DNA of 64,000 bases from Gemmatimonadota bacterium (GTDB taxonomy: Bacteria; Gemmatimonadota; Gemmatimonadetes; Longimicrobiales; Gaopeijiaceae), in assembly GCA_022826005.1 (NCBI GenBank), contig JAJDVT010000070.1:1-64000 (forward strand), in the 5' to 3' direction. How positions within the stretch are numbered: the stretch's first letter is position 1; each line of letters begins with the position of its first letter. Below the pieces are notes generated by a model, which saw nothing but the letters and a program-made list of their open reading frames with translations, was not told the DNA's origin and made no database searches. A program made the translations under genes and the position numbers. Positions 2,667-51,092 of this stretch are shown one piece after another.

Positions 2667-4094
2667 ATGATGTCCGCAACCCGCACTCCATTCGTCCTCA
2701 TCCCCCTTGTCGCCGCCCTGGTCGCGGCTCCACGTGCCGGCGCACAGGAGGTAGTCGAACTGACCGACCGGGACGAACGCCTGGAGCCCGCCTTCGAGGA
2801 GGTCTTCCGGGTCGGAGTCCTCGACGGCGAGGATTGGGAGATGTTCGCGATGGTCCGAAAGGTGGCGTTCGACGCGGAAGGCAACCTCTACGTGTTCGAT
2901 GCCGGGACCGATAATGTTCTGCGCATCGTGGTCTTCGACCGGTCGGGAGCGTTCCTTCGCGAGTTCGGCACCTCGGGTGAGGGGCCCGGGGAGTTCAAGT
3001 ATCCGACCAGCTACGGCGTCATGCGCGACGGCACCACCGTCGTTCGCGATCTCGGACACCAGAGCTACCACATCTTCGGCCCCTCCGGAGCGTTCGAGCG
3101 CCTGGTTCGCAATCGAGTCGGAATCACGCAGGACAGCGGGGGCGGGGTTGGAGTGACCACAATCGCGACATCGACGCCCATACAGGTGGACCCACGCGGC
3201 GGGGCCGTGTACACCTGGGACGCTGTGAGCCTGAATGCGCCGGCGGGGACATCGCCCCACCGGGCGATTTCCCGGCACAGCCTCGATGGGGAGGACGTGC
3301 AGACAGAGACCGTGGTCGAGGCGTGGCAACCTCCCCGTGAGACCGCGGAGGACCTGATCACGGTCTCCGGCAATGCTCCGGTCGTCGAGGGGCCGGGCGG
3401 CCAGCAGGCCAGCCTGGGGGACCTGTTCAAGGGCCTGACCAGGGGCCTTACCCGCCCCCCTCACTTCGAACCCCCGCTCCTGATGGGTTTGTTGCCGGAC
3501 GGCGGCATCGTCTATTCCGACTCGTCCGCCTACGCACTCAAGGTGGCCGCGCCGGACGACGGGAGTCTGAGCAGGACCATCACCCGGCCGATCCACCCGC
3601 AACCGGTGACGCCCAGGATCGAGGAACTGGCCCGGCAGCGGCAGGAAGAGGCGCAGGCACAGGTGACGCAGGAGTTTCAGTCCGCCCTGGGTGGCTTGGC
3701 CGGGTTGACCGGCATCGACTTCAACACCAGCACATCGGGCGCGGGAGGGGCTGGCGGCATTGTGAGCGGTGGTGCATTGCCGGGCGGTGGCTCCCTGGAT
3801 GGTCTCTCCTTGTCTCTCGGTGAAGAGACCTTGTATCCCGTAGTCCCGGTCATTCGGGAACTGCTGACCAGCTGGGAGGGGCGCATCTGGGTCATGCGCC
3901 GGGGAGACGAAGTCTTCGAAGACGGTCCGATCGACGTGGTCACCGCCGATGGCGAATACGTCGGCACCTACCGGCCCGGCGCGACGGAGATGCCCCACGC
4001 CTTCGGCCCGGACGGACTGGCGGCGTTCATCGAACTGGACGAGTTCGACGTGGCCAGCGTGGTGGTGCGGAGGCTGCCGACCGAGGTGCGCTAG
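2667..4094 (+). CDS. secreted 6-bladed beta-propeller protein
   Basis: A 475-residue protein starting [15 protein letters not shown] with a Sec signal peptide cleaved near RAGAQ. Repeated propeller blades follow: [13 protein letters not shown] (about residue 71), [13 protein letters not shown] (about 105), later blades with [18 protein letters not shown], and a final GRIWVMRRG...[13 protein letters not shown]. Between blades 4 and 5 is a long low-complexity insert of about 70 residues rich in Gln/Ala and then Gly. Family proteins of this type are exported and mostly of unknown function, and ligand binding is assumed. It converges with the next gene across 30 bases. Confidence 0.8.
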
Positions 4095-4124
4095 AACGCC
4101 GGTGTGCCTCGGGGTCTTGCGCCC

Positions 4125-5222
4125 CTACCCGATGTCCAGGGACGGCAACATCCCGGGGCACGGCTCGCCGCTGACCCGACGCAGCGGGTGCATCGAGGCC
4201 TTGTTGGTGCTCCCCATGAACAGGTGGAATGCCGATCCGCCCTCCGGCTCCCCCTGGTCCTGCTGAAACACCAGGACGCTGTCCCCTCTCACCCGTACGG
4301 GAATCCGGGCGATGTCGGTCTCCAGGTTCTTCTGAACGATCGCGTAGCATCCCGTTTCGGGGTTGATGATCGCGCCTCCGGTACGGAAGTCGCTGCTGAA
4401 CAGCACGAGGTTGCCCCGGTCGTCGAACGATGGATGCACATCGTGGGACCATGGCGCGCAGGGTTTCCCGGCGATCTGGCAGCCCCAGTCCTCGGTGAAC
4501 TCGGTCGGAATGGTTACCCGTTCCATCTCGCCGTTCACGTGGTAGACGAACACGGAGTCAGGGCCTTCCTCGTAGGTCCTGACGACGAACGCCCGGTCCT
4601 CTGTGCACACGATCCGTGCCCGGTTGTTCAACGCAGCGTGGGTGACCATCTCCTGAGTGCGGGCGCGAGCCTCGTCCTCCGAGCTGGCCACGATCGTGCC
4701 GAAATCGTAGAGCGACCTGTCAACCACCACGTTGGGTCCTATGGCCTCAGTCTCGTGCCGGAGGACACCGTTCTCGATAGGTATGGCGGGCTTGCCACCC
4801 AGATCGCAGACCGACTTTCCAATGAGTGCGGGTGCTCCCGGAGTCCATGAGCTCACTGGATCATGGTTCGAATCGAACGTGAGGACTCGAAGGACGCCGG
4901 CAACGTACAAACCGCCGTCATCGGCAAGCGCTATCGAAACCTTGCCCCCCGAGAGTTCGAACGGGCCGTCACCACGTGGCGTCGCGATCGTTCGGACCCA
5001 TTCGCCCGTCTCGAGCGAGAAGACCATGATCCCGTCCGGCTCCTCGACATCGTGGACAAAGAGAAGGTTGCGGTCCCAGTCAGCTCCCAGATTGTGGTGC
5101 CGCATGGCTCGCCACTCGTCGTGGATGATGGTTCGGCCGACCGAGTAGTCGATCTCCAGGATCTGCTGGGCGCTGCCCAACGCGGGGGTAGCGAGGATGG
5201 CCAGGAGGACGCGTGCGCGCAT
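4125..5222 (-). CDS. secreted propeller-like protein
   Basis: A 365-residue protein with a signal peptide (MRARVLLAILATPALGSAQQ). Blade-like motifs include WDRNLLFVHDVEEPDGIMVF, ADDGGLYVAGVLRVLTFD, CTEDRAFVVRTYEEGPDSVFVYH and FDDRGNLVLFSSDFRTGG. It carries several cysteines in pairs (CDLGG, CTEDR, CQIAGKPC, CYAI, CPGM), unusual among its neighbours and perhaps forming disulfides after export. It is more divergent than the other propellers here, so the family call is less certain. It is divergent from blaI at 5456. Confidence 0.65.
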   Translation of the reverse strand: MRARVLLAILATPALGSAQQILEIDYSVGRTIIHDEWRAMRHHNLGADWDRNLLFVHDVEEPDGIMVFSLETGEWVRTIATPRGDGPFELSGGKVSIALADDGGLYVAGVLRVLTFDSNHDPVSSWTPGAPALIGKSVCDLGGKPAIPIENGVLRHETEAIGPNVVVDRSLYDFGTIVASSEDEARARTQEMVTHAALNNRARIVCTEDRAFVVRTYEEGPDSVFVYHVNGEMERVTIPTEFTEDWGCQIAGKPCAPWSHDVHPSFDDRGNLVLFSSDFRTGGAIINPETGCYAIVQKNLETDIARIPVRVRGDSVLVFQQDQGEPEGGSAFHLFMGSTNKASMHPLRRVSGEPCPGMLPSLDIG

Positions 5223-5372
5223 GGAAGGTTCCTCAGTTGGGTTGTTCAGGAGGTTGGTTATATGGGACTTCCGCAGCTAAACCGGGGGTTGCCTTGGAAC
5301 AACCTGGTGACGGACGAGGTGGACATGACCTCCGGGCGGATAGGATCCGTGACGGCTCCACCTGAACCGTCT

Positions 5373-5393
5373 GGTTGACACCGTACGTCAGCC
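5373..5393 (+). promoter_or_regulatory. putative promoter/operator upstream of blaI
   Basis: An imperfect palindrome GGTTGAC-n7-GTCAGCC (arms match at 6 of 7 positions) overlaps a -35-like TTGACA 63-83 bases upstream of the blaI start. BlaI repressors bind palindromes in their own promoters, so this is a candidate autoregulatory site. No matching copy of this exact sequence was found upstream of the second blaI. Confidence 0.3.
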
Positions 5394-5455
5394 TGTAGTA
5401 CCGTTAAGGCAAATTGCAGTATCCACGGATTCATGGACCGAGGGAGAACACCGCG

Positions 5456-5827
5456 ATGGGCTTGCCGAGAATACCGAACTCCGAACTGGCCGTGATGGAA
5501 CTGCTCTGGCGGAAGGGCCGGCTGTCCGCACGCCAGATCCTCGAGAACCTGTACCCCGACTCGGCCCGGTCCCAGCACGGGGCGGTTCAGAGCCTGCTGC
5601 AGCGCCTCATGCAGAAGGGCTTCGTGGTCCGCGACCGCGACGTGGGCGTCTACCTCTTCTCCGCCGTCCCGAGCCGGGAGGAGTACGCCAGCGACCGGCT
5701 GGATGCGCTCGCCGGTCGCCTGACCGGGGGATCGGTGGTTCCGATCATCACGCAGCTGCTCGAGGCGGACAGGCTGCCGAAGGACGAGATCGATAGGCTC
5801 CGAAGGATTCTGGAGGAGTGGAAATGA
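5456..5827 (+). CDS. blaI: BlaI/MecI/CopY family repressor
   Basis: A 123-residue winged-helix repressor. The start ATG has GAGGGAG upstream and gives MGLPRIPNSELAVMELLWRK, the classic BlaI N-terminus. The recognition region SARQILENL...GAVQSLLQRLMQKGFV follows, and then a C-terminal dimerisation part that BlaR1-type proteases cleave in known systems. Its last codons overlap the start of the downstream blaR1-like gene (ATGA), so the two are translationally coupled. The last 25 codons recur as a stub at 9297-9374, evidence of tandem duplication. Confidence 0.9.
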   Translation: MGLPRIPNSELAVMELLWRKGRLSARQILENLYPDSARSQHGAVQSLLQRLMQKGFVVRDRDVGVYLFSAVPSREEYASDRLDALAGRLTGGSVVPIITQLLEADRLPKDEIDRLRRILEEWK

Positions 5828-8085
5828 CCGACATCCTGTTGCAGATCGGCGCTACGAAGCTGGTCCTCGCGGTCGCTCTGGCCGGGATGGTCTGGCTGGT
5901 GACGCGGCGCGTGGCGCGACCCGCCATCGCGCATCCCCTTTGGCTCCTGGTCCTCGGCGCCATGCTGGTTCCCGCGGTCGTGCCGGTTCGCATTCTGCCG
6001 GAGGAGGCGGCGGTGGAGGTTGTGGCGCAGCCCGAGTTGGGGACGCAGCCCGGGGTCGTGGCGCAGCCCGACCACGTGCCGCTTCGCGTCCCACCGGAGG
6101 AGGAGGCGGTGGCGGCGGCGGCCCCGTCCGAGGTCAGCGCGCCGGTGGTAGTCGCCGACGACGGCGTGAGCAGGGATGGCATGGCCCCCGGAGGTTGGCT
6201 CCCGCTGAGCGGAAAGCCGCTGGCCGTGCTCTTGTGGCTTCTGGGCTCCGCCGGATTCTTCGGGTGGACGGTGGTGCGGACGGTGCGTTTTCAGCGCACG
6301 CTGACCAGGGCTGCCCGGCCGGCCCCACAGCTGCAACGGCTCGCGGCCGAGATCGGTGCCACGCTGGGCCTGCCGCGAGTGCCCCCAGTCTACACCACGG
6401 GTGCGCGGGTGCGCCCGCTGGTGTGGTGGGCGGGTGGCCACGTCCGGATCCTGATACCGTCGGTGCTCGTTTCCGAACTCGACGAGACGGAGCTTCGCGC
6501 GGTGCTTGCGCATGAACTGGCCCACGTGCGGCGCCGGGACTACCTGGTGCGAGTGGTGGAATTGCTGGCGTGCTCGGCCTACTGGTGGAATCCGGTCGTC
6601 TGGTGGGCCAAGCGCAGGATGAGGTCGGCGGAGGAGTCGAGCTGCGATGTGCTCGCCGTCTCCGCGTCGAGGTTGACGCGAGACCGGTACGCCAGGTCCC
6701 TGCTGCGCGTGGTCGAGGTCATGTCGGCTGCGCCGATCCCTCGGGCCCCGGCTCTGGCGAGCGCGGCTGACGCTTGCCGGGACTCGAAGCTGCTGGAGAA
6801 GAGGCTGAGGGCTGTCCTGACAACCGCTCTTCCGGCGTTGCCCGCGGCCGGGAGATTCCGCGTGGCGGGCGCGGCCGCGTTGGCGTTCGGGTTGTCCCTC
6901 GGGCTGGTGTATTGCACCCCCGGCGAGCGGGTGGCTTTCGACCAGCCGCGGTTGCCGACTCCCGCGATGTCCGAGGACAGTGCCGGCATTCGCATCGTCG
7001 AGTACGCCGGCGCGCCGGACATGCAGGCGCCGTTCCGACTTTCCGCCGAACCGCGTTACCGCCACGGCGGGAACCCGGGTGATTACCGGTTTCGCTATAT
7101 CTACGCGGGCGCCCTGCTGGCGGACGGCAGAGTCGTTGTTAGCGATGCGATCAACAACGAGTTGATCGTGCTGAGCTCGGACGGAACGACGCATGAGGTG
7201 CTGGCGAACGGTGGAGATGAGTGGCGCCCCTATTACTTCAGCGACGTTTTCGCGCTGGGTCGGGACAGCGTCCTGGTGACCCACCACACCCTGAGCCGCG
7301 TGACTATCTTCGCCGGCGATTCGGTCGCGCGGACCGTCGATACTCGGAGCGCGGACGGCCTTGCTCTGCAGGGAATCGGCGCTTCCGGTCAGCTGCTCCT
7401 GGCCACTGGAGGGTTTCGTTCCGGTTTCGAGGAGCAGTGGCTCCCCGGGCACCTGGCCCGGATGGATCTGCAAACCGGCATCGTGGACACTGTCGCGTCC
7501 TACGACTACATGCCGTACACGCCGCGTAAGCATTACAACCCGTTTGTTGGCTTCGGACATGTCACCGTCGCCGGAGGACAGTTCGTCTACACAAGGTCGG
7601 ACCGACCCGAAATCACATGGCGTCGACCCGATGGCGCCATCAGGCAGATTGTGCGCTGGCAGCCCGATTGGGCCTACGCCACGGAGGAGCACCTGCGGCC
7701 GCACCAGGCACGACTCCGGGACCACCACCGCCGGGCCGATCCCGGTGCCTCCCGCGCCACGATTGAAGAGAGGGTGAAAGAGGATATGGCGGCAACCGAC
7801 GTCCGCGTGGGGTATCCGTTGCCCTTGTTCAGATTCCCGGTCGGCGATTCGCAGGGTCGGGTGTGGCTGCCGAGGGATGTGACGGACGGTCCGGCCCATG
7901 GCTCGCCTCCCTTTACCGTCGTGGCACGGGATGGGGAGTGGCTGGGCACGGTGGATGCCCCGCTGGGGTTTTATGTACTCGATGCGACGGAAGGTCTCGT
8001 CCTCGGTGTGCAGAGCGGCGAGACACGGGTAGGGAGCCTCTCGCAGGTAGGGAGCCTCGTGGTCTACGAGCTGATTGAGCGATAG
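5824..8085 (+). CDS. BlaR1-like M56 metalloprotease fused to a 6-bladed beta-propeller
   Basis: A 753-residue membrane protein starting MTDILLQIG, with GGAGGAG 5 bases upstream and a 4-base overlap with blaI. Transmembrane segments lie at about residues 4-27, 38-58 and 134-156. The zinc protease motif HELAH is at residues 230-234 (followed by VRRRD), with the later SAEESSCD motif supplying further ligands as in MecR1/BlaR1. A fourth membrane segment lies at about 350-364 and ends LGLVYC. The outside part (about 385-753) is not the penicillin-binding sensor of BlaR1. It is a complete propeller with blades such as LLADGRVVVSDAINNELIVL and DSQGRVWLPRD. Inference: an extracellular signal sensed by the propeller triggers cleavage of BlaI. 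It closely resembles the free lipoprotein that follows it. Confidence 0.85.
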   Translation: MTDILLQIGATKLVLAVALAGMVWLVTRRVARPAIAHPLWLLVLGAMLVPAVVPVRILPEEAAVEVVAQPELGTQPGVVAQPDHVPLRVPPEEEAVAAAAPSEVSAPVVVADDGVSRDGMAPGGWLPLSGKPLAVLLWLLGSAGFFGWTVVRTVRFQRTLTRAARPAPQLQRLAAEIGATLGLPRVPPVYTTGARVRPLVWWAGGHVRILIPSVLVSELDETELRAVLAHELAHVRRRDYLVRVVELLACSAYWWNPVVWWAKRRMRSAEESSCDVLAVSASRLTRDRYARSLLRVVEVMSAAPIPRAPALASAADACRDSKLLEKRLRAVLTTALPALPAAGRFRVAGAAALAFGLSLGLVYCTPGERVAFDQPRLPTPAMSEDSAGIRIVEYAGAPDMQAPFRLSAEPRYRHGGNPGDYRFRYIYAGALLADGRVVVSDAINNELIVLSSDGTTHEVLANGGDEWRPYYFSDVFALGRDSVLVTHHTLSRVTIFAGDSVARTVDTRSADGLALQGIGASGQLLLATGGFRSGFEEQWLPGHLARMDLQTGIVDTVASYDYMPYTPRKHYNPFVGFGHVTVAGGQFVYTRSDRPEITWRRPDGAIRQIVRWQPDWAYATEEHLRPHQARLRDHHRRADPGASRATIEERVKEDMAATDVRVGYPLPLFRFPVGDSQGRVWLPRDVTDGPAHGSPPFTVVARDGEWLGTVDAPLGFYVLDATEGLVLGVQSGETRVGSLSQVGSLVVYELIER

Positions 8086-42135: not shown

Positions 42136-43017
42136 GTGGGGGGGGTGTACCGCGTCCGCACAGCCGACGGGATGATAGAGGCCTCTCTGCGCGGCAAACT
42201 CAAGAAGGGGCAGCGGAAACGGGGGCAGCGCAGCGGCGACCAGGTGGTGATCGGCGACCTGGTGACGGTGGGAGCCGGGTCCGGTGGTGCGCGCGTGATC
42301 GAGTCCGTGCGGCCGAGGCGGACGTGGCTGGCTCGGCGGCCGTCGTGGAGCCGCGTGGACCGGGTGGTGGCGGCCAATCTGGACCGCCTGCTGGTGGTGG
42401 TGTCGGTTGGGGACCCGCCGCCGTCGCGGTTCGTCATTGACCGGGTGCTGGTAATGGGAGAGTCGGGGGGCATGGGCTGCCAGGTGGTCCTCAACAAGGT
42501 GGACCTGCCGGGTTGCAGCACGGTGGTGGCCGAGCTGACGCGGGCGTATCGCGCGGCGGGCTACCAGGTGCTGCCGACGTCGGCGGTGACGGGCGCGGGG
42601 ATCGAGGCTCTTCGCGCGGTGATCGCAGCCGGGTCGTCGGCGCTGGCGGGGCCGTCGGGGGCGGGGAAGTCCTCGCTGCTGAACCGGGTCGAAGCGGGGC
42701 TCGACCTGCGCACCCGTCCGGTGGGGCGCCGCTCCCGGGCCGGTCGGCACACCACGGTGTCGAGCCGACTCATCGCGCTCTCCGGCGGTGGCCAGGTGGC
42801 CGACACGCCGGGATTCTCGGATGTCGGGGTGGGCGATGTCGAAGCCGCGGCCCTGGGAGGATGCTTTCCCGAGTTCCGTCCGTTTCTGGGTCTCTGTCAC
42901 TTCAACGACTGCACTCACATCCACGAGCCCGGGTGCGCGGTCGCCGCGGCGGTTGCCTCGGGACACATCCGGCAGGAGCGGCACTCGAGCTACCGGACGA
43001 TCCTGGAAGCGTTGTAA
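42136..43017 (+). CDS. rsgA: ribosome small subunit-dependent GTPase A
   Basis: A circularly permuted GTPase that checks late 30S assembly. An OB-fold comes first (VYRVRTADGMIEASLRGKLK), then G4 (NKVDLPG), G5 (TSAVTGAG), G1 (LAGPSGAGKSSLLNR, about residue 170), G3 (DTPGFSD) and the zinc-binding end CHFNDCTHIHEPGCAV. The GTG at 42136 is the first standard start after a stop at 42094, yet coding similarity extends upstream (LEGQVVEAVGG). A non-standard start such as ATC at 42106 is possible, or the natural start was altered by the repeat just upstream. Confidence 0.92.
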   Translation: MGGVYRVRTADGMIEASLRGKLKKGQRKRGQRSGDQVVIGDLVTVGAGSGGARVIESVRPRRTWLARRPSWSRVDRVVAANLDRLLVVVSVGDPPPSRFVIDRVLVMGESGGMGCQVVLNKVDLPGCSTVVAELTRAYRAAGYQVLPTSAVTGAGIEALRAVIAAGSSALAGPSGAGKSSLLNRVEAGLDLRTRPVGRRSRAGRHTTVSSRLIALSGGGQVADTPGFSDVGVGDVEAAALGGCFPEFRPFLGLCHFNDCTHIHEPGCAVAAAVASGHIRQERHSSYRTILEAL

Positions 43018-43080: not shown

Positions 43081-44382
43081 ATGATGCCGGCCAGGAAGAC
43101 CTTGTGGATCCCGTCCTTTCTGTTGGGGGCGGCAACGTGCACGGCGCTGGCGACGGGGGCCGGACTCCTGCTCTACGACGACCAGGGACTGTTTCGCGCC
43201 GGGCTCGCTCTGGCGGGTGTCAACCTCGGTGCGATCGGCGTCGGCCTGGTCGGCACGGGAGAACGCCAGCCGGATGCCAGCCCGCACGCCGGCGGGTGGT
43301 GGCTCGCCTTCCTGATCGCCCTCATGGGTGCCGCCGGTTTCGCGGTCGCATGGGAAGCGATGCACGGCTTTGCGGCAGCCCCGGCGGCGCAGGGCGTGGG
43401 CCTGGCGCTGACCTCGGCGCTTCCCGCCTACTTCGCGGCCGGGACCTGGGCGCGCCTGACTTCACTGGAGAAGCTGGTGAACACCGGAAAGCGCCGTCAG
43501 ACGACTTTCGGCACGGCTGCCGGAGTGGTCCTGGCGGCCACGCTGGCCAGGGCCTTCCTGGGCAGGCCGGTATGGGCGGTTACCGCCTTTCTGCTGGCGA
43601 TGGTGCTGGCCTCGGCAGGGGCTCGTCTTCACGTCTGGATCCTCGATCGCGTGCCGCGGCTCTTCCGGTCCGCGAGCCGGCCCGAGCGGCCGGCCCTGCG
43701 GTTCGAGGAGTGGCGCACGGCGGTCCCGGAGAGCCGGACGCGGGTGGTGCGCGATGGCGAAGTGACTCGCTTGCTGGACCCGGCCCCGCAGGGAGACTGG
43801 CGCGAAGGGGTGGCCTCTACGCTTCACGATGGCCGGCCGATCCTCTTCGTGGGGGCGGCAAGCTGGTTCGACCCGGCCGACGGCAGGGCATGGCAGGTCT
43901 ACGAGGCGGACAAGGGCGTGCTGAGTCTGGCTGTGGAGGGACTGGACTGGGAGGATGGGGTGGTGGCAGCGACGCCGGTCCCGGAGGACGAGGGCTGGGT
44001 GGTGATAGCCGACGCGGTGGCCGCGTCGTCCGTCTGTCTGGATTCGCTCCGGGAGGCCGGTGTGCAGCGGGTGTGGATCGGAGGAATGGCGGGAGCAGTC
44101 CCGGAAGGACTTCTGGCGGAAGCGCGGGAGGCCGGGATCGGTGTGGGGCGATACCGGAGCGCGGTGGCGGGCGTTCCCGGTCCGCCGCATGTAGCGCCAC
44201 GGGCGGACGGCCTGTGGTGCCTGGAGCCTGGCGGGGAGCCGCCGGAGTCGGTCGTCGGGATGGTGACGGCGCCGCTGCCGTGCGAACCGGCCGGCGAAAG
44301 CGCGGAGGCGCGGCTGGCGGAACCGAGCGCGTCCGAGGACTTGCCGCAGGTTTCGGAGGACGCCGGCGACGAGGCGCCCTGA
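43081..44382 (+). CDS. membrane protein with soluble C-terminal domain
   Basis: A 433-residue protein of unknown function. The first half has five to six hydrophobic segments (IPSFLLGAATCTALATGAGL, GLALAGVNLGAIGVGLV, WWLAFLIALMGAAGFAVAW, LALTSALPAYFAAGTW, TTFGTAAGVVLAATLAR, TAFLLAMVLASAGARL). From residue ~205 it is soluble, with DGRPILFVGAASWFDPADGR and VWIGGMAGAVPEGLLAEARE, and an acidic tail. Its stop overlaps the ATG of the phosphoesterase gene by one base, tying it to the SbcCD-like pair. Nothing in the soluble part was recognised. Confidence 0.65.
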   Translation: MMPARKTLWIPSFLLGAATCTALATGAGLLLYDDQGLFRAGLALAGVNLGAIGVGLVGTGERQPDASPHAGGWWLAFLIALMGAAGFAVAWEAMHGFAAAPAAQGVGLALTSALPAYFAAGTWARLTSLEKLVNTGKRRQTTFGTAAGVVLAATLARAFLGRPVWAVTAFLLAMVLASAGARLHVWILDRVPRLFRSASRPERPALRFEEWRTAVPESRTRVVRDGEVTRLLDPAPQGDWREGVASTLHDGRPILFVGAASWFDPADGRAWQVYEADKGVLSLAVEGLDWEDGVVAATPVPEDEGWVVIADAVAASSVCLDSLREAGVQRVWIGGMAGAVPEGLLAEAREAGIGVGRYRSAVAGVPGPPHVAPRADGLWCLEPGGEPPESVVGMVTAPLPCEPAGESAEARLAEPSASEDLPQVSEDAGDEAP

Positions 44383-45431
44383 TGACTGTGGCCCACCTGT
44401 CCGACCTGCACCTGGGCTATGATGGCGGGTCGGGAGGGCGCGGCCGGTCCGAGGATGTCCTGCGGGTCTTCGACACGGCCATGGCCCGGATCGCGGGGCT
44501 GGAGGTGGGGCTGGTCGTGATCGCGGGGGACGTCTTCGACCACCCGAACGTCACCGCACCCCCGATCGCGGCCTTTTCGAGGGCGGTGCGGCGGTTGCGC
44601 GAGCGGCTGCCGGGGGTGGTGGTGGCGGTGGCGGCCGGGGCGCGCGACACTCCGCTCAACCCGGCGCAACAGGGACCGGTGGCGGTGATCGGTGCGCTTG
44701 AGGGTGTGGAGACGGCGACCACCGCGGTCCGCCGGTTTGGGCTGGCGGGAGGGAGGGTGACGGTCACGCTGGTGCCGCACCTCGCCGCCCGCAGGGGTCG
44801 GGCCCTGAAGGTGAAGCCGGACACGGGCGCTCGCTGGAATGTGCTGGTGCTGCATGGAGCGGTGGCAGGCGATGCCGCGACCAGGGGGTCCGCGGCCGCG
44901 GCCGGAAGGGCGCCCGCCACCGGTTCCGCCGCCGCCATCGCACTGCCCGGCTGGGACTACTTAGCGCTCGGCTCCCGCCACATGCGTGCGAAGGTCTCCG
45001 CGCGCGCCCATTATTCCGGCTCGCTGGAGAGAATCGGCCCCGATCCCTGGGAGGAGGCTGCCGTGGACAAGGGATTCCTGACCGCACGCCTGGACACGGG
45101 CACGGTGCGCTTCCGCCCCGTGGAGGCACGCGCGGCGGTGAGCCTTGCCCCGGTAGACGCGGCGGACGGCGGCACCGCTACCGCCGCCCGGCGCCTGAGC
45201 GAGGCGCTGGCCGGGGTCCCCGGCGGCATCGATGGCAAGCTGCTGCGCGTACCGGTGCGGGGGCTTGGCCCGGAGGATCTGGCCGCCCTCGACCGGGAGC
45301 TTCTGACGCGGGTGCGGGGCCGCGTGGCGGAGCTGCGCGTGGACTCGCTGGCTGCCGGCAGTCCGTGGACAATCCCCGCGTCGCACCGAGGGCGGCGAGG
45401 CGCCGGGCTGACAAGGCGCGACGAAAGGTGA
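44382..45431 (+). CDS. SbcD-like metallophosphoesterase with altered active site
   Basis: A 349-residue calcineurin-like phosphoesterase. The first two metal motifs are normal: HLSDLHLGYD (residues 5-14) and VVIAGDVFDHP (about 47-57). The third motif, GNHD in Mre11/SbcD, reads AGARDTP, and the final GHxH-type motif appears as LGSRHMRAKV, with LHGAV before it. Two catalytic or metal positions are thus changed, so nuclease activity may be weak or lost. It follows the membrane protein without a gap and precedes an SbcC-like gene by 180 bases. Confidence 0.8.
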   Translation: MTVAHLSDLHLGYDGGSGGRGRSEDVLRVFDTAMARIAGLEVGLVVIAGDVFDHPNVTAPPIAAFSRAVRRLRERLPGVVVAVAAGARDTPLNPAQQGPVAVIGALEGVETATTAVRRFGLAGGRVTVTLVPHLAARRGRALKVKPDTGARWNVLVLHGAVAGDAATRGSAAAAGRAPATGSAAAIALPGWDYLALGSRHMRAKVSARAHYSGSLERIGPDPWEEAAVDKGFLTARLDTGTVRFRPVEARAAVSLAPVDAADGGTATAARRLSEALAGVPGGIDGKLLRVPVRGLGPEDLAALDRELLTRVRGRVAELRVDSLAAGSPWTIPASHRGRRGAGLTRRDER

Positions 45432-45494
45432 ATAGCGGAGCTATTTTGCCCGAGGAGCAACGCAGGGCGGTGCTTCAGGTGCCGGAAAGGTAAA

Positions 45495-45530
45495 GAAAAC
45501 GTGACATTTTGTATGGTTTTCATGACGGAG
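45495..45530 (+). promoter_or_regulatory. AT-rich site resembling the padR upstream element
   Basis: TGTATGGTTTTCATGAC (45510-45526) matches 16 of 17 bases of the sequence upstream of padR (1118-1134) and is preceded by GTGACATTT. It lies between the phosphoesterase and SbcC-like genes, a plausible promoter position for the latter. Confidence 0.4.
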
Positions 45531-45557
45531 CAAGAGCGTGAGCGCCGCAGCCAGCCC

Positions 45558-45604
45558 GGATGCATCGGCGGCCGAATGCAGCGGGGACTTGCTCCACGGG
45601 CTGC
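45558..45604 (+). repeat. interspersed repeat copy
   Basis: GGATGCATCGGCGGCCGAAT, then GCAGCGGGGACTTGCTCCACGGGCTGC. It aligns along its whole length with the copy at 52574-52620 and ends 9 bases before the ATG of the SbcC-like gene. Confidence 0.65.
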
Positions 45605-45613
45605 CTGGGTCCG

Positions 45614-47074
45614 ATGAAGCTGGAGGTACTGCGGGCCGCGACCCCCACCGCGGCGATCGACCTGAGGGACGCGCGCGGGCTGGTGGCCTTCGTGTCGGAG
45701 GGCGATGCCGCCTGGGGCGGGTACGTGGCCGCGATCCGGGCGGCCTTCGCCGCGCGGGGGCGTGTGCGCGGGCCGGGATCGGTGGTTCGGGGCAAGGCCG
45801 CGGCCGCCACGGTGGGTACGGCCGCCTTCGAGGCCCAGTTGGGAAAGGTGCTCGCGAGGCACGGGCTGCGGCGCGAGGAGTACGCGGCCGTGTGGCTCGG
45901 TGCGGGGCCGCCCCGGGTCTGGGTGGGGGCGGGGGTGGCGTTGCTGCAGGGCCCGGAGACCGCCCGCGGCGTTCGGGAGGGGGCCGCGTGGGGGGAGCCG
46001 GGCCAGGGAGGGCCGCCGTCCGGCGCGGGGATGGAAGCCGGGTGGGTGGGGGGACTGGCCCGCGAGGCCAGGGAAGATGTGGAGCGGCTGACCCGGGCGC
46101 GCGAGGGGGTGGGGGGGGTGGGGGCCCGCCTGCGGGAGCTGCGTGAGGAGCTTGCGATCGTGCAGGGCGATGCGGAGGCCGCCGCGATGGCCTGGGTGCG
46201 TGAGCGCCAGGACGCCGAGACCCGTCTGCTCCTCTACCGGGACCGGGAAAAGGAGCTGAGGGGCCGGCTGGAGTACATCCGCGAGGCGGGCGCGGAAGCG
46301 GCCTGCGCGAACTGCGAACGGGTCCTGGGCAAGCGCACGGACGCGGTGCGGCGCGCACGCCGGGAGGAGTGGGAAGCAGTGGTTCAGGACGGCAAGTGGT
46401 GGCGTCGGCGGCGGTCCCAGCTGGAGCTCAAGCCCGAGGGGCTGACGGAGTTGGAGACACGCGCGCTGGCACTGAATGCCGAGATCGAGGACGTTGCGCA
46501 GGAGCTGCAGAGGCGCGAGGCAGCGGCGCGGGAGCTCGAAGCGGCCACCGGGCGGGTGGAGCGGCTATTGGAGCTGGAAGCGAGGCTGTCCGGGGATTCG
46601 ACCGTGGCAGAAAGGGGTACGGCGCCCGGAGACGGAGCCCGCCGACGCTACCGGGCAGCGGTTCATGCCCGGCTCGTGGCACTCACCGGCGGGCGGTGCG
46701 CGTCCGGGTTTCCGGAGCTTTACACGGACTGGACTGCGGGAAACCGCAGGGGCGGAGAAGCGGAGGCGGCGCTGGAGCTGGCAGCCCGAATCACCTTGGC
46801 AGAGATGGCCGCGCGGGCGGGGATGCGGCTGGGATCGATCATCCTCCCGTCAGGACTGGAACGCCTGGGTGCTCAGGACCTCCCCCGGGCGCTCACGGAG
46901 CTGGTCCGCCTGGCGAAGCGCGTGCCGCTGGTGCTGGCGAAGGCCACACCGCAGGTCGTGGCCCAGGCCCCGGAGTGCTTCGACCTCGTCTACCGGTTCG
47001 AAGCCACCGGCAAGGGCAGCCGCGTCAGGCGGCAGCGTCTCGGCCTGGCGACAATCTGGTTGCAGGGGGATTGA
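45614..47074 (+). CDS. SbcC/Rad50-like coiled-coil protein with CxxC hook, no P-loop
   Basis: A 486-residue protein starting MKLEVLRAATPTAAIDLRDA. Two long coiled coils (about residues 152-230 and 255-345) flank EAACANCERVLGKR, a CxxC like the zinc hook of Rad50/SbcC, but the arms are far shorter than in Rad50. The N-terminus has no Walker A GxxGxGKS. The C-terminus IILPSGLERLGAQDLPRAL, then VPLVLAKATPQVV and FDLVYRFEAT, follows the layout of the Rad50 Walker B/D-loop/H-loop lobe but lacks the Walker B acidic pair. Next to an SbcD-like gene, this points to a non-ATPase relative of the Mre11-Rad50 complex; that reading is inference. Confidence 0.6.
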   Translation: MKLEVLRAATPTAAIDLRDARGLVAFVSEGDAAWGGYVAAIRAAFAARGRVRGPGSVVRGKAAAATVGTAAFEAQLGKVLARHGLRREEYAAVWLGAGPPRVWVGAGVALLQGPETARGVREGAAWGEPGQGGPPSGAGMEAGWVGGLAREAREDVERLTRAREGVGGVGARLRELREELAIVQGDAEAAAMAWVRERQDAETRLLLYRDREKELRGRLEYIREAGAEAACANCERVLGKRTDAVRRARREEWEAVVQDGKWWRRRRSQLELKPEGLTELETRALALNAEIEDVAQELQRREAAARELEAATGRVERLLELEARLSGDSTVAERGTAPGDGARRRYRAAVHARLVALTGGRCASGFPELYTDWTAGNRRGGEAEAALELAARITLAEMAARAGMRLGSIILPSGLERLGAQDLPRALTELVRLAKRVPLVLAKATPQVVAQAPECFDLVYRFEATGKGSRVRRQRLGLATIWLQGD

Positions 47075-47143: not shown

Positions 47144-49516
47144 TCACCCGGGTTCATCCACAGGGGGCTCTTCCTCGTCCTCTTCGTCCACGTCGTCCCC
47201 CAGGCGGGCCCATGCATCGGCGCGCGCGCGGTATTCCTCGTTTGCCTCCTGGTCGCCGATCTGTTTCGCATGCTCCATCAGCGACCTGTACACCCAGGAG
47301 TAGTAGTTGGGGATGCCGATCGTGGACTTGTCCTTCCACTCCGCCCACTCCGGCAGGCCGCTCCGATGGATGAAGACGTCGTAGGCCAGCGTCCGGGTGC
47401 GCTCCACGTCCACCCACGGTCCGACGACCCCGGTATACATATCGACGGTCTGATTCCGAATCACTCCCGAGTTGGCCAGTACCGCGGGATTCCCCGGCCA
47501 CAGCCGGAACGCAAGCCCCTGGCGAATGAGGTAGGGGCGCACCCCGAGATCGTTGGGCGCGCTTGTGCTGGAGGCAAAGTAGATGGGCCGGTCGCCGATC
47601 GAATTCCTGATCGTCCACAGCGCGAATACCTCCCAGGGAGCAAGTCCGGCCTTTCCGACGATGACTCCCGAGATCGGACCGAGCGAGACGGCCTGAATGC
47701 TGTCGATCGGCGCCGGTGTTCTCGCTATCCGTTCGATGGCTTCGTCGGTGAATTGCGACTCGTCGACGATCGAGCGGGTCGGCATCCGAATCGGTTCGCG
47801 CAGGAGGAGGGGGACCTTGCCGAGCGCCTCCGCCTCCGCCGGATCGTGCGTGTACATGGCGTCGGTGTTTTCGGCCGTGTAGGGACGCTGGCAGATGATG
47901 AGCGTCGGGTCCGCGTCCGGGTCCTCGCCGGGCTCGCAGGGACTCGTGAGGTCCCTGAGCTGCCCGACGTACCAGGGTGTGTTGAAGTATGAAGTCACCG
48001 CGACGGTTACGTCCCGCCGGATCCCCTCGACCTCCTGCAGGTACCAGAGCGGGAAGGTGTCGTTGTCGCCGTTGGTGAAGATCACGCCGTACGGCTCGAC
48101 GCTCATCAGCAGGTTGTAGGCCCAGTCGCGCGCCGAATGGTCGCCGGCCCTGCTGGCCCAGTTGAAGTTGAGGACCAGGGGGATGAAGGCCAGCCCCAGC
48201 ACCGGCGTTCCGAAAGCGAGCGAGCGCCCGGACCTTCGCCTGACCCAGTCCCACAGGCCGGCGATCCCGAGCCCGGCCAGCAGCCCCCAAACGGAGAAAC
48301 CGATCGTGAAGAAGTAGTCCCGCTCCCGGACCTCGCGGAAGTCCCGTGGGATGTCGACGGGAGCCGACGAGTGGCCGGGCTTGAAGTTCAGGTAGAAGAC
48401 GAGGGCCACCGAGAGCACGGCGAAGAGGATCACCATGTAGTACCAGCTCGCCCGATCCCGCCGGTAGTGCTCCACGGCGCCGAAGATGCCCAGCGCGATG
48501 AACAGCGCCGTGAAGGGCGCGCGGAGCCTGCCGAAGAGGACATCGGCCGAAGAGAGACCGCGGGACCACTGCCAGTCGAAGTACTGCATCCAGTTCTTGT
48601 ACTGCTCCGCAAGGGATGCCTGCCGTACGGAGATGGGGAGTGTGGGGTACTGCTGGCGCTTCAGTGCGGCGGAGAGGTCCTGGCATCCGGCGTTCCCGTA
48701 CGTGACGATGCTGGCGAGCGCCTCCCCGACGTTCTCGCAGGTCGGCTCGGCCTCGTTGATCACGGGCCCCAGTTCGGAGCGGATCGGCAGGTAGAGGTGG
48801 ATGCTCAGCCCCAGTACGACCGCCGGAATGCCGAACAGGTAGATGCGGTAGTTCAGCAGCGTGGCGGGGCGCACCAGAAAGATGAAGATGGCCAGCGCCG
48901 GCGCCGCCAGGAAGGCCATCAGGTGGTTGCCGACCGACAGGGCCAGGATGAAGGCCATCAGGATGAGGAGGTTGTCGTCCTTGCCGCGCCCGAGCCGCTC
49001 CCGCCAGCGGAAGGCCAGCCAGGACAGGAGCGCGATGGTGAAGAGGGAGACCGTGTAGACCTTCTCGTTGACGTTCGACTGGTTCCAGACCGTGAAGGCG
49101 GTGGCGCTGACCAGGGCGGCGGCCGCGGCGCCGATGAGGCGGAAGCGCCGGTCGGTGGAGAAGTGCCCCAGGATGTGGTGGACCACCAGGAACCACAGTC
49201 CGTGCGCCAGCGAGCCCATCAGGGCGGAGAAGAGGTTGATGCGCACGCCGGTGGAAAGCCCGAGCGGGGAAAGAAGGATCTCCCAGGTCCGGGCCAGGAC
49301 CACGAAGAGCGGGTTCCCCGGCTGGTGGGGGATGCCCATGATGTGCGCGGTCGCAATGTATTCGCTTGTGTCCCAGAAGGCGGTTTCCGGCGCGAGCGTC
49401 ACGGCGTAGAGTATGCCGATCGCCAGCGCGGTCACACTTGCCCAGAGGTAGGGCGGGCCGTCTTCGGCTCCGTCCGGGTTCGCGTTGCGGCGCTGTAGTA
49501 TAGCTTTCAGGTCCAT
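47144..49516 (-). CDS. DUF2723 family multi-pass membrane protein
   Basis: A 790-residue protein starting MDLKAILQRRNANPDGAEDG. DUF2723 motifs come early: YAVTLAPETAFWDTSEYIAT, AHIMGIPHQPGNPLFVVLAR and WNQSNVNEKVYTVSLFTIAL. About ten membrane segments span residues 25-435. A soluble part follows with FTNGDNDTFPLWYLQEVEGI. The DxSE motif and layout resemble GT-C type glycosyltransferases such as protein O-mannosyltransferases, so transfer of a lipid-linked sugar at the membrane is likely. The end is very acidic (DDVDEEDEEE). It is divergent from trpE. Confidence 0.9.
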   Translation of the reverse strand: MDLKAILQRRNANPDGAEDGPPYLWASVTALAIGILYAVTLAPETAFWDTSEYIATAHIMGIPHQPGNPLFVVLARTWEILLSPLGLSTGVRINLFSALMGSLAHGLWFLVVHHILGHFSTDRRFRLIGAAAAALVSATAFTVWNQSNVNEKVYTVSLFTIALLSWLAFRWRERLGRGKDDNLLILMAFILALSVGNHLMAFLAAPALAIFIFLVRPATLLNYRIYLFGIPAVVLGLSIHLYLPIRSELGPVINEAEPTCENVGEALASIVTYGNAGCQDLSAALKRQQYPTLPISVRQASLAEQYKNWMQYFDWQWSRGLSSADVLFGRLRAPFTALFIALGIFGAVEHYRRDRASWYYMVILFAVLSVALVFYLNFKPGHSSAPVDIPRDFREVRERDYFFTIGFSVWGLLAGLGIAGLWDWVRRRSGRSLAFGTPVLGLAFIPLVLNFNWASRAGDHSARDWAYNLLMSVEPYGVIFTNGDNDTFPLWYLQEVEGIRRDVTVAVTSYFNTPWYVGQLRDLTSPCEPGEDPDADPTLIICQRPYTAENTDAMYTHDPAEAEALGKVPLLLREPIRMPTRSIVDESQFTDEAIERIARTPAPIDSIQAVSLGPISGVIVGKAGLAPWEVFALWTIRNSIGDRPIYFASSTSAPNDLGVRPYLIRQGLAFRLWPGNPAVLANSGVIRNQTVDMYTGVVGPWVDVERTRTLAYDVFIHRSGLPEWAEWKDKSTIGIPNYYSWVYRSLMEHAKQIGDQEANEEYRARADAWARLGDDVDEEDEEEPPVDEPG

Positions 49517-49562
49517 TTGTTCCCCAGAGTCCTCGATTCCCGGCAGGCCCCCTTGGGCCCGC

Positions 49563-51092
49563 GTGCCTTCAGCGACAGACTTCAGATTGGACGTCAAACC
49601 CTCATTCGAATCGTTGCTTCGCGACGCCGCGCCGGAACAGCGGATCCCGGTGTGGTGCGAATTCCTCTTCGATTCCGACACGGCCGTCACGGCCTACCAC
49701 AAGCTCCGGGAAGGGCCCTTCGGCTTTCTCCTGGAGAGTGTGGTCGGTGGTGAACAATGGGCCCGTTACAGCTTCTTGGGAAGCCGTCCGCGGGAAGTGT
49801 GGCTCCTCGAAGGGAACGACGTGTCTCTGTGGAGCCCCCGCCGCGGGTGGCGTCCGGTCACCGTCAAGGAACCGCTGGCGGACCTGCGGGAACGCCTCAA
49901 GCGGGGCGAACCGCGCCCCGATCCCCGTCTCCCGCGCTTCTGGGGGGGCGCCGTCGGCTACTTCGGATACGATCTGGTGCGCCGTATCGAGCGCCTCGGG
50001 ACGGGGCCGCCGGACGACCAGGGACTGCCCGGGGCGGTCTTCATGTTCTCCGACGTGGTGGTCGCGATCGACAACCTGCACGGCCGGGCCAAGGCCATCA
50101 CCACAATCGAGACCGGCGCCGGTGCGTCCCCGGACGCGCTGCGGCACGGCTACGATTCGGCGGTCGCCCGGCTGGCGGAGACGGTCGGCCGGCTGCGGTC
50201 CGGCGCTGATCCCGAGCCGCTGGACCTGGCGCCCCCGAGCACGCTCGATCCCATGGTCACCACCAACTTCGAGCGGGATGCCTTCATCGATGGCGTGGGC
50301 CGCATCAAGGAGTACATCGCAGCCGGCGACGCGTTTCAGGTGGTCCTCAGCCAGCGCCTGACGACCCCCTTCGAGGAACACCCGTTCCAGCTCTACCGCG
50401 CCATCCGCACCATCAATCCGTCTCCCTACCTCTTCAACCTGGACCTGGGGGATTTCCATCTGGTCGGGTCTTCGCCCGAGGTGCTGGTCCGTCTGGAAGA
50501 CGGGGTCGTTACGGTGCGGCCGATCGCGGGGACGCGGCGGCGGGGGCACACCCGGGCCGAGGACCGCGCACTCGCCGAGGAGCTCGCCGCCGACGAGAAG
50601 GAGTTGGCGGAGCACCGGATGCTGGTGGACCTGGGCCGCAACGATGTGGGCCGGGTCTCGGAGTACGGCACCGTCACCGTCCCGGAGCTGATGAAGGTGG
50701 AGCGCTACTCGCACGTGATGCATCTGTGCAGCCAGGTCGAGGGGCGCGCCCGCGGGGGACTTTCGGCGCTGGACGTTCTGGCCGCCTGCTTCCCCGCCGG
50801 CACCGTCTCCGGGGCGCCCAAGATCCGCGCGATGGAGATCATCGACGAGCTGGAGCCCACTGCACGGGGCCCCTACGCCGGCGCGGTGGGGTACATCGGC
50901 TGGGGCGGTGCCCAGATGGACACCGCGATCGCCATCCGCACGATGGTCGTGAGGGACGGCCACGCCCAAGTACAGGCCGGCGCCGGGATCGTCGCGGATT
51001 CGAACCCGGAATCGGAGTATGAGGAGACGGTCAACAAGGCTAAGGCTCTGCTGGGCGCGGTTGCGATGGTGACGTCGGCGGGCCGCGGATGA
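49563..51092 (+). CDS. trpE: anthranilate synthase component I
   Basis: About 509 residues; makes anthranilate from chorismate with TrpG. The N-terminal part has the tryptophan-binding motif FGFLLESVVGGEQWARYSFL. The chorismate-binding domain has GDAFQVVLSQRL, NPSPYLFNLDLGDFHLVGSSPE, RPIAGTRRRG, DEKELAEHRMLVDLGRNDVG, FPAGTVSGAPKIRAMEII and the end GAGIVADSNPESEYEET. All catalytic motifs are present. No ATG is available: GTG at 49563 or TTG at 49587 are both possible. No other trp gene lies in the window. Confidence 0.92.
   Translation: MPSATDFRLDVKPSFESLLRDAAPEQRIPVWCEFLFDSDTAVTAYHKLREGPFGFLLESVVGGEQWARYSFLGSRPREVWLLEGNDVSLWSPRRGWRPVTVKEPLADLRERLKRGEPRPDPRLPRFWGGAVGYFGYDLVRRIERLGTGPPDDQGLPGAVFMFSDVVVAIDNLHGRAKAITTIETGAGASPDALRHGYDSAVARLAETVGRLRSGADPEPLDLAPPSTLDPMVTTNFERDAFIDGVGRIKEYIAAGDAFQVVLSQRLTTPFEEHPFQLYRAIRTINPSPYLFNLDLGDFHLVGSSPEVLVRLEDGVVTVRPIAGTRRRGHTRAEDRALAEELAADEKELAEHRMLVDLGRNDVGRVSEYGTVTVPELMKVERYSHVMHLCSQVEGRARGGLSALDVLAACFPAGTVSGAPKIRAMEIIDELEPTARGPYAGAVGYIGWGGAQMDTAIAIRTMVVRDGHAQVQAGAGIVADSNPESEYEETVNKAKALLGAVAMVTSAGRG

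Follow-up and report, generated by a model that had tools for sequence, protein, structure and literature searches.

Introduction

Few DNA-repair machines are as conserved as the Mre11–Rad50 complex, whose enzymatic roles are hard to part from its structural ones, i.e., from the hook and from tethering. Nuclease activity of Mre11 requires H85 (PMC4996933), and the PfMre11 variant H85S is active neither as an exonuclease nor as an endonuclease (PMC8824468). Eukaryotic replicative polymerase B-subunits, in turn, are inactivated phosphoesterases that have become scaffolds (PMC4996933). Here we describe an SbcCD-like gene pair from a Gemmatimonadota genome in which the motifs of both catalytic centers are altered, and which we call SBD (Mre11/SbcD-like) and SBC (Rad50/SbcC-like). 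The window, that is, the whole analyzed stretch of 64,000 nucleotides, is part of contig C38 of a 4.85-Mb genome in 143 contigs (G000). We refer to its family as f1 and to its genus as g1; the sister families f2, f3, f4, f5, and f9 belong to the same class. A literature search for SbcCD in Gemmatimonadota or for SbcC/SbcD pseudoenzymes, with most subscription papers outside its scope, found no report.

Like Mre11–Rad50 and SbcCD, the altered pair features a predicted phosphoesterase fold, the same gene order, a CxxC hook, a remnant of the C-lobe, and a position shared with the intact pair of several sister-family genomes. Unlike these complexes, it lacks the catalytic His, the ligands of what we take to be the second metal site, and the Walker A, signature, Walker B, and His switch motifs. 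Its coiled-coil arms have roughly one-third of the usual length, and both proteins are often encoded by one fused open reading frame (ORF). The polymerase B-subunits share the calcineurin/Mre11-type fold with lost catalytic residues, but they have no Rad50-like partner or hook and belong to another complex; they are a functional precedent, not a relative.

Results

The locus comprises three consecutive open frames on the plus strand: the membrane protein gene MEM (43081–44382), SBD (44382–45431), and SBC (45614–47074). An earlier note on this DNA had read SBD and SBC as long, intact frames, and indeed they encode 349 and 486 amino acids (aa), respectively; the SBC start is best placed at ATG 45614, which is common to its relatives.

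SBD is a Mre11/SbcD-like protein that is predicted to be nuclease-dead. The window protein keeps DLHLG and GDVFD(H) and has GARD in place of GNHD, as the note had stated. Of its further reading, GHxH altered to SRH, the loss of the first His (to Ser) stands, whereas the second His is retained (GSRH). SbcD/Mre11 models match SBD over its first 90–160 residues, with TIGR00619 at an E value of 3.5e-9, under the model's cut-off, and the SBD family profile matches solved MjMre11 at 2e-18. We counted motifs in 68 SBDs and 71 SBCs of f1. The GNHD Asn is present in 0/68 SBDs, the catalytic His is replaced by Arg in 68/68, and 62/68 lack the first His of GHxH. Retained are the motif I Asp (67/68) and His (66/68), the motif II Asp (66/68), and the second His of GHxH (65/68), together with the motif IV His in 46/68. 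The ligands of the two metal sites reportedly follow from the PfMre11 structure described by Hopfner in 2001; by this structure, the retained ligands presumably belong to the first site and the lost ones to the second.

For the fold we used L090, a natural SBD–SBC fusion of 843 aa from the window's genus, which was modeled with 40 sequences (mean predicted local distance difference test score, pLDDT, 84.4; predicted template modeling score 0.68). Its SBD half superimposed on MjMre11 (4tug) with a Z score of 26.7 and a root mean square deviation of 3.4 over 282 residues. The model also compared with PfMre11 (1ii7) at a Z score of 26.6 and matched Mre11 in Foldseek with E 3e-13. Judged by this relative, SBD is predicted to have the calcineurin-like Mre11 fold including the capping domain.

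Two loci deviate from the common pattern. The SBD of L135 (G023, 3738–4994) lacks motif I as well, with NPRLG for DLHLG, and sits on the longest tree branch. In the f3 pair L073 (G054, 6915–8075 and 4502–6907, minus strand), the SbcD motifs are altered (AGDRDT, GHHP) and the Rad50 motifs intact, which probably is an independent loss of the nuclease center alone; G054 carries a second SbcC-like ORF on its contig C23.

SBC is a shortened Rad50/SbcC-like protein. In the window it carries CANC at residues 231–234, and neither GxxGxGK[ST] nor LSGGE nor a Walker B DE was found in it, in agreement with the note's description of a CxxC hook without Walker A and Walker B. The Rad50-like C-terminal lobe described there is recognizable as a remnant: the SBC family profile matches the C-lobe of PfRad50 at E 9e-5, and SBC can be aligned with intact Rad50-like proteins across the hook. 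The Rad50 kinship of this half rests on these profiles and alignments; searches of SBC against Pfam and NCBIfam gave no significant match, and no match to AAA_27. In the f1 alignment, signature, Walker B, and His switch are not conserved. Because the alignment is gappy at the P-loop, the loss of Walker A is based on the missing GxxGxGK[ST], which occurs in no altered f1 ORF.

The hook region behaves differently. CxxC is invariant in 71/71 f1 SBCs, as is the WW of VVQDGxWW (71/71). In a set of members no two of which exceed 70% SBD identity, identity in the hook apex was 0.58 in f1 versus 0.46 in the intact proteins, whereas in the ATPase C-lobe it was 0.27 versus 0.675; the f1 N-lobe had an identity of 0.21. 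In alignment A1, 29 of the 31 invariant SBC columns fall within residues 194–287. In f1, conservation has moved away from the ATPase C-lobe and toward the hook apex, an inversion of the pattern in the intact proteins. The apex of the window SBC, the family's most conserved SBC part, spans roughly residues 194–275 (46193–46438, plus strand; WVRERQDAET...YRDR...CANC...EEWEAVVQDGKWWRRRR). The L090 model displays paired long helices, the helix up to the hook having about 85 residues, compared with an estimated 235–250 residues between head and hook of the intact 814-aa proteins, as derived from their hook position 406. At the apex of this short coiled coil, the CxxC would represent a retained zinc hook with putative zinc binding.

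SBC homologs were found in 43 of 59 related genomes, and both the MEM–SBD–SBC order and the altered motifs recur across f1. Together with the profile matches to solved Mre11 and Rad50, this rules out a chance resemblance. In the phylum sample, 61 of 74 f1 genomes from many genera carry the altered pair, not counting G122 with its weak match only. In 84,980 scanned species, 74 loci turned up, and apart from L114 each carries a Gemmatimonadota title; motifs were intact in four of these loci only (L145, L147, L151, and L152), and SBD and SBC form a single ORF in 36. L114 (JAHEKL010000015.1) bears a Gammaproteobacteria title with a Gemmatimonadota-type altered pair and probably is mislabeled or from a mixed bin. 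In the sister families f2, f3, f4, f5, and f9, the pair is intact, measures about 390 and 814 aa, and has GNHD, GHYH, GPNGAGKS, SGGEED, and LLILDE. In the midpoint-rooted SBD tree, altered and intact forms split on one branch with support 100/100, present in 100% of the bootstrap trees.

The neighborhood is shared as well. Upstream lies a putatively RsgA-like gene (42136–43017, plus strand), an anchor common with the intact SbcCD locus of one sister family. Downstream, a convergent gene for a large membrane protein, by eye putatively DUF2723/PMT-like (47144–49690, minus strand), serves as the second anchor, and a PMT-like gene also adjoins intact pairs in sister families. The intact f3 pair of G036 stands in the order RpoD–RsgA–MEM relative–SbcD–SbcC–TrpE, and the intact pairs L172, L145, L151, and L058 share RsgA/RpoD, PMT, and/or TrpE neighbors with the altered locus. 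These neighbors were not seen at the f4 and f5 loci examined, so that the chromosomal position is shared within the order, not the whole class. The altered locus hence is the positional ortholog of the lineage's own SbcCD, with one in-place conversion at the base of f1. Purifying selection acts on each of the three genes, the ratios of nonsynonymous to synonymous substitution rates (dN/dS) being 0.12–0.46 across MEM, SBD, and SBC, taken as a simple pairwise estimate on GC-rich DNA with overlapping genes.

In the window, SBD and SBC, which overlap or fuse in relatives, are parted by a copy of a dispersed repeat (45428–45613, no strand assigned) with at least 40 matches across the genome at 72–94% identity; the C-terminal tail of the window SBD differs, too. 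A plasmid search with this repeat as query gave no match.

Discussion

On balance, we consider it probable that the pair is a catalytically dead, hook-dimerized Mre11–Rad50 scaffold, a pseudoenzyme that is kept by selection and occupies the place of SbcCD as its positional ortholog. SBD would fold like Mre11 and probably caps the base of the short SBC coiled coil, given that the pair often is one polypeptide. Two SBD–SBC units could then join via a zinc hook at the conserved apex, where the invariant surface VVQDGxWWKRRR might additionally offer a site for a partner. A head that has no ATP would be unable to cycle between open and closed states, and DNA would stay uncut for want of the catalytic His and of the second metal site. 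We may thus picture a static dimer that serves as a tether or as a scaffold for docking, either on DNA or on a partner protein held by the apex. Its half metal site, with the invariant Arg, may bind a phosphate or a single structural metal.

Several points weigh against this picture. Dimerization and DNA binding are putative, and so would be any phenotype. The fold comparison covers the SBD half of a relative's model, with the Rad50 half covered by profiles and alignment, and the dN/dS values are of the simple kind given above. Moreover, the pair has been lost in G009, G011, G030, G033, g12, g37, and g49, so that it is dispensable in these f1 members.

The earlier note's observations were confirmed and its interpretation is partly supported. 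Its preference for repurposing over random decay is borne out by family-wide losses, a single origin, purifying selection, and an SbcCD with intact catalytic motifs elsewhere in the genome. It had missed that four ligands attributed to one metal site are kept while the other site is lost and the catalytic His has become an invariant Arg, that conservation has shifted to the hook apex, and that intact orthologs occupy the same position in sister families. More tentatively, one may go further and suppose that throughout the family the pair is an enzyme-free complex whose working part is the hook apex together with the Arg-bearing half metal site, that its role lies outside DNA-end processing, and that in some genomes it is the only SbcD/Mre11-type protein detected. 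This wider proposal is possible, and we hold it with reserve.

A new or residual enzyme seems unlikely. Here, the half-site of Asp, His, Asp, and His would, with the invariant Arg, act as a one-metal phosphoesterase on another substrate, and SBC would only dimerize. The near-complete retention of the first-site-type ligands and the fixation of Arg at the catalytic His, which is odd for pure loss, speak for such an activity. However, no member retains the second-site Asn and few retain the first GHxH His, L135 has given up motif I too, and the assignment of ligands to metal sites, taken from the PfMre11 structure, is putative.

We regard it as rather improbable that the altered pair serves as a regulator or dominant-negative form of active SbcCD, by mixed complexes or by blocking its substrate. 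Such a role would fit the window genome, where contig C81 encodes SbcCD of the E. coli type with every catalytic motif in place and with domain matches, the normal pair for which the earlier note had suggested looking. E. coli-type SbcC occurs in all g1 members, and nearly all of them combine the altered pair with E. coli-type SbcCD. Of 40 f1 genomes with the altered pair that were sampled outside g1, however, 36 lack an SbcD above the family cut-off, and G144, G215, and G306 are among the genomes without any other SbcD-like match. SbcD above the cut-off was found in six of the nine non-g1 f1 genomes without the pair, all six belonging to genus g12. A dependence of the altered pair on E. coli-type SbcCD is therefore not supported, and we dropped it. 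Genomes that have lost the pair (g12, G030, and G033) retain E. coli-type SbcCD. Sequence divergence furthermore makes mixed dimers unlikely. The window genome also encodes a YhaO–YhaN-like pair (L178 858–5287, minus strand; about 84.9–89.3 kb of C38 and outside the window). With an SbcD-like phosphoesterase and an SbcC-like ATPase, it likewise is SbcCD-like but differs from the altered pair in its separate locus and in a YhaN-like protein that belongs to AAA_27 and has an intact Walker A (GPNESGKST); this protein shows hydrophobic stretches in its middle.

Improbable to a like degree is a membrane-anchored MEM–SBD–SBC machine that would, e.g., use the inner membrane as an anchor for DNA or a partner. 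MEM (43081–44382, plus strand, start from the alignment of relatives) is predicted to be a membrane protein with six helices, resembling half of an MFS protein, and its C-terminal domain looks like a degenerate spermidine synthase. Its model (pLDDT 87.9) has six long N-terminal helices, and Foldseek places the C-terminal domain with spermidine synthases at a low TM-score. The f3 MEM relatives L151 and L055 match the Fused MFS/spermidine synthase family NF037959 at 1e-32 and 2e-29, whereas the window MEM, with six helices only, gave no significant match to it. In G025, G026, and G028, MEM relatives retain the membrane part only. In favor of a joint machine, the MEM stop and SBD start overlap: as the note had observed, the TGA ends at 44382, where the SBD ATG begins (TGATG), and overlaps of 1 or 4 bases recur in most f1 loci and in nearly all that have both genes. 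Yet the pair stands without a MEM-like ORF in at least seven loci (L088, L094, L111, L114, L143, L144, and L148, called by a helix count calibrated on known MEMs), and MEM stands without the pair in G009, G011, and G033. An f3 MEM relative, moreover, is already found near an intact pair, and the adjacency may be inherited. From the separate occurrence of both parts, we conclude that the pair is the unit and MEM a frequent neighbor, perhaps with a functional link; of the membrane link suggested in the earlier note, the upstream coupling in most f1 members stands, and its generality does not. In the three genomes with MEM alone (L185, L186, and L187), RsgA and MEM are kept, SBD–SBC is gone, and the neighborhood is preserved, PMT following MEM in G009.

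That the pair is a slowly dying relic, with selection relaxed after end processing passed to AddAB/RecBCD-type and other systems, is very improbable: the head domains do diverge fast, the locus is missing in several lineages, and PDDEXK_1 (AddB/RecB-type) nuclease domains are present in g1, but dN/dS is purifying in all three genes, open frames persist in many genera, the apex is more conserved than in active proteins, and fusions and coupled starts are retained.

Further candidates were rejected. Local decay in one metagenome-assembled genome is ruled out by the family-wide losses, and an unrelated coiled-coil family as the source of SBC by the alignment via the hook to intact Rad50-like proteins and the profile match to PfRad50. 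As for anti-phage defense, the window proteins had no PADLOC match, and a weak LmuB coil match in one relative was taken as a chance coiled coil.

If the pair is a scaffold without enzymatic activity, as we favor, both activities were removed once and in place, and the rest was kept across a family that stands beside intact sister families, which amounts to a natural separation-of-function set. Such a set would allow one to ask directly what the hook apex contributes once ATP and nuclease activity are gone.

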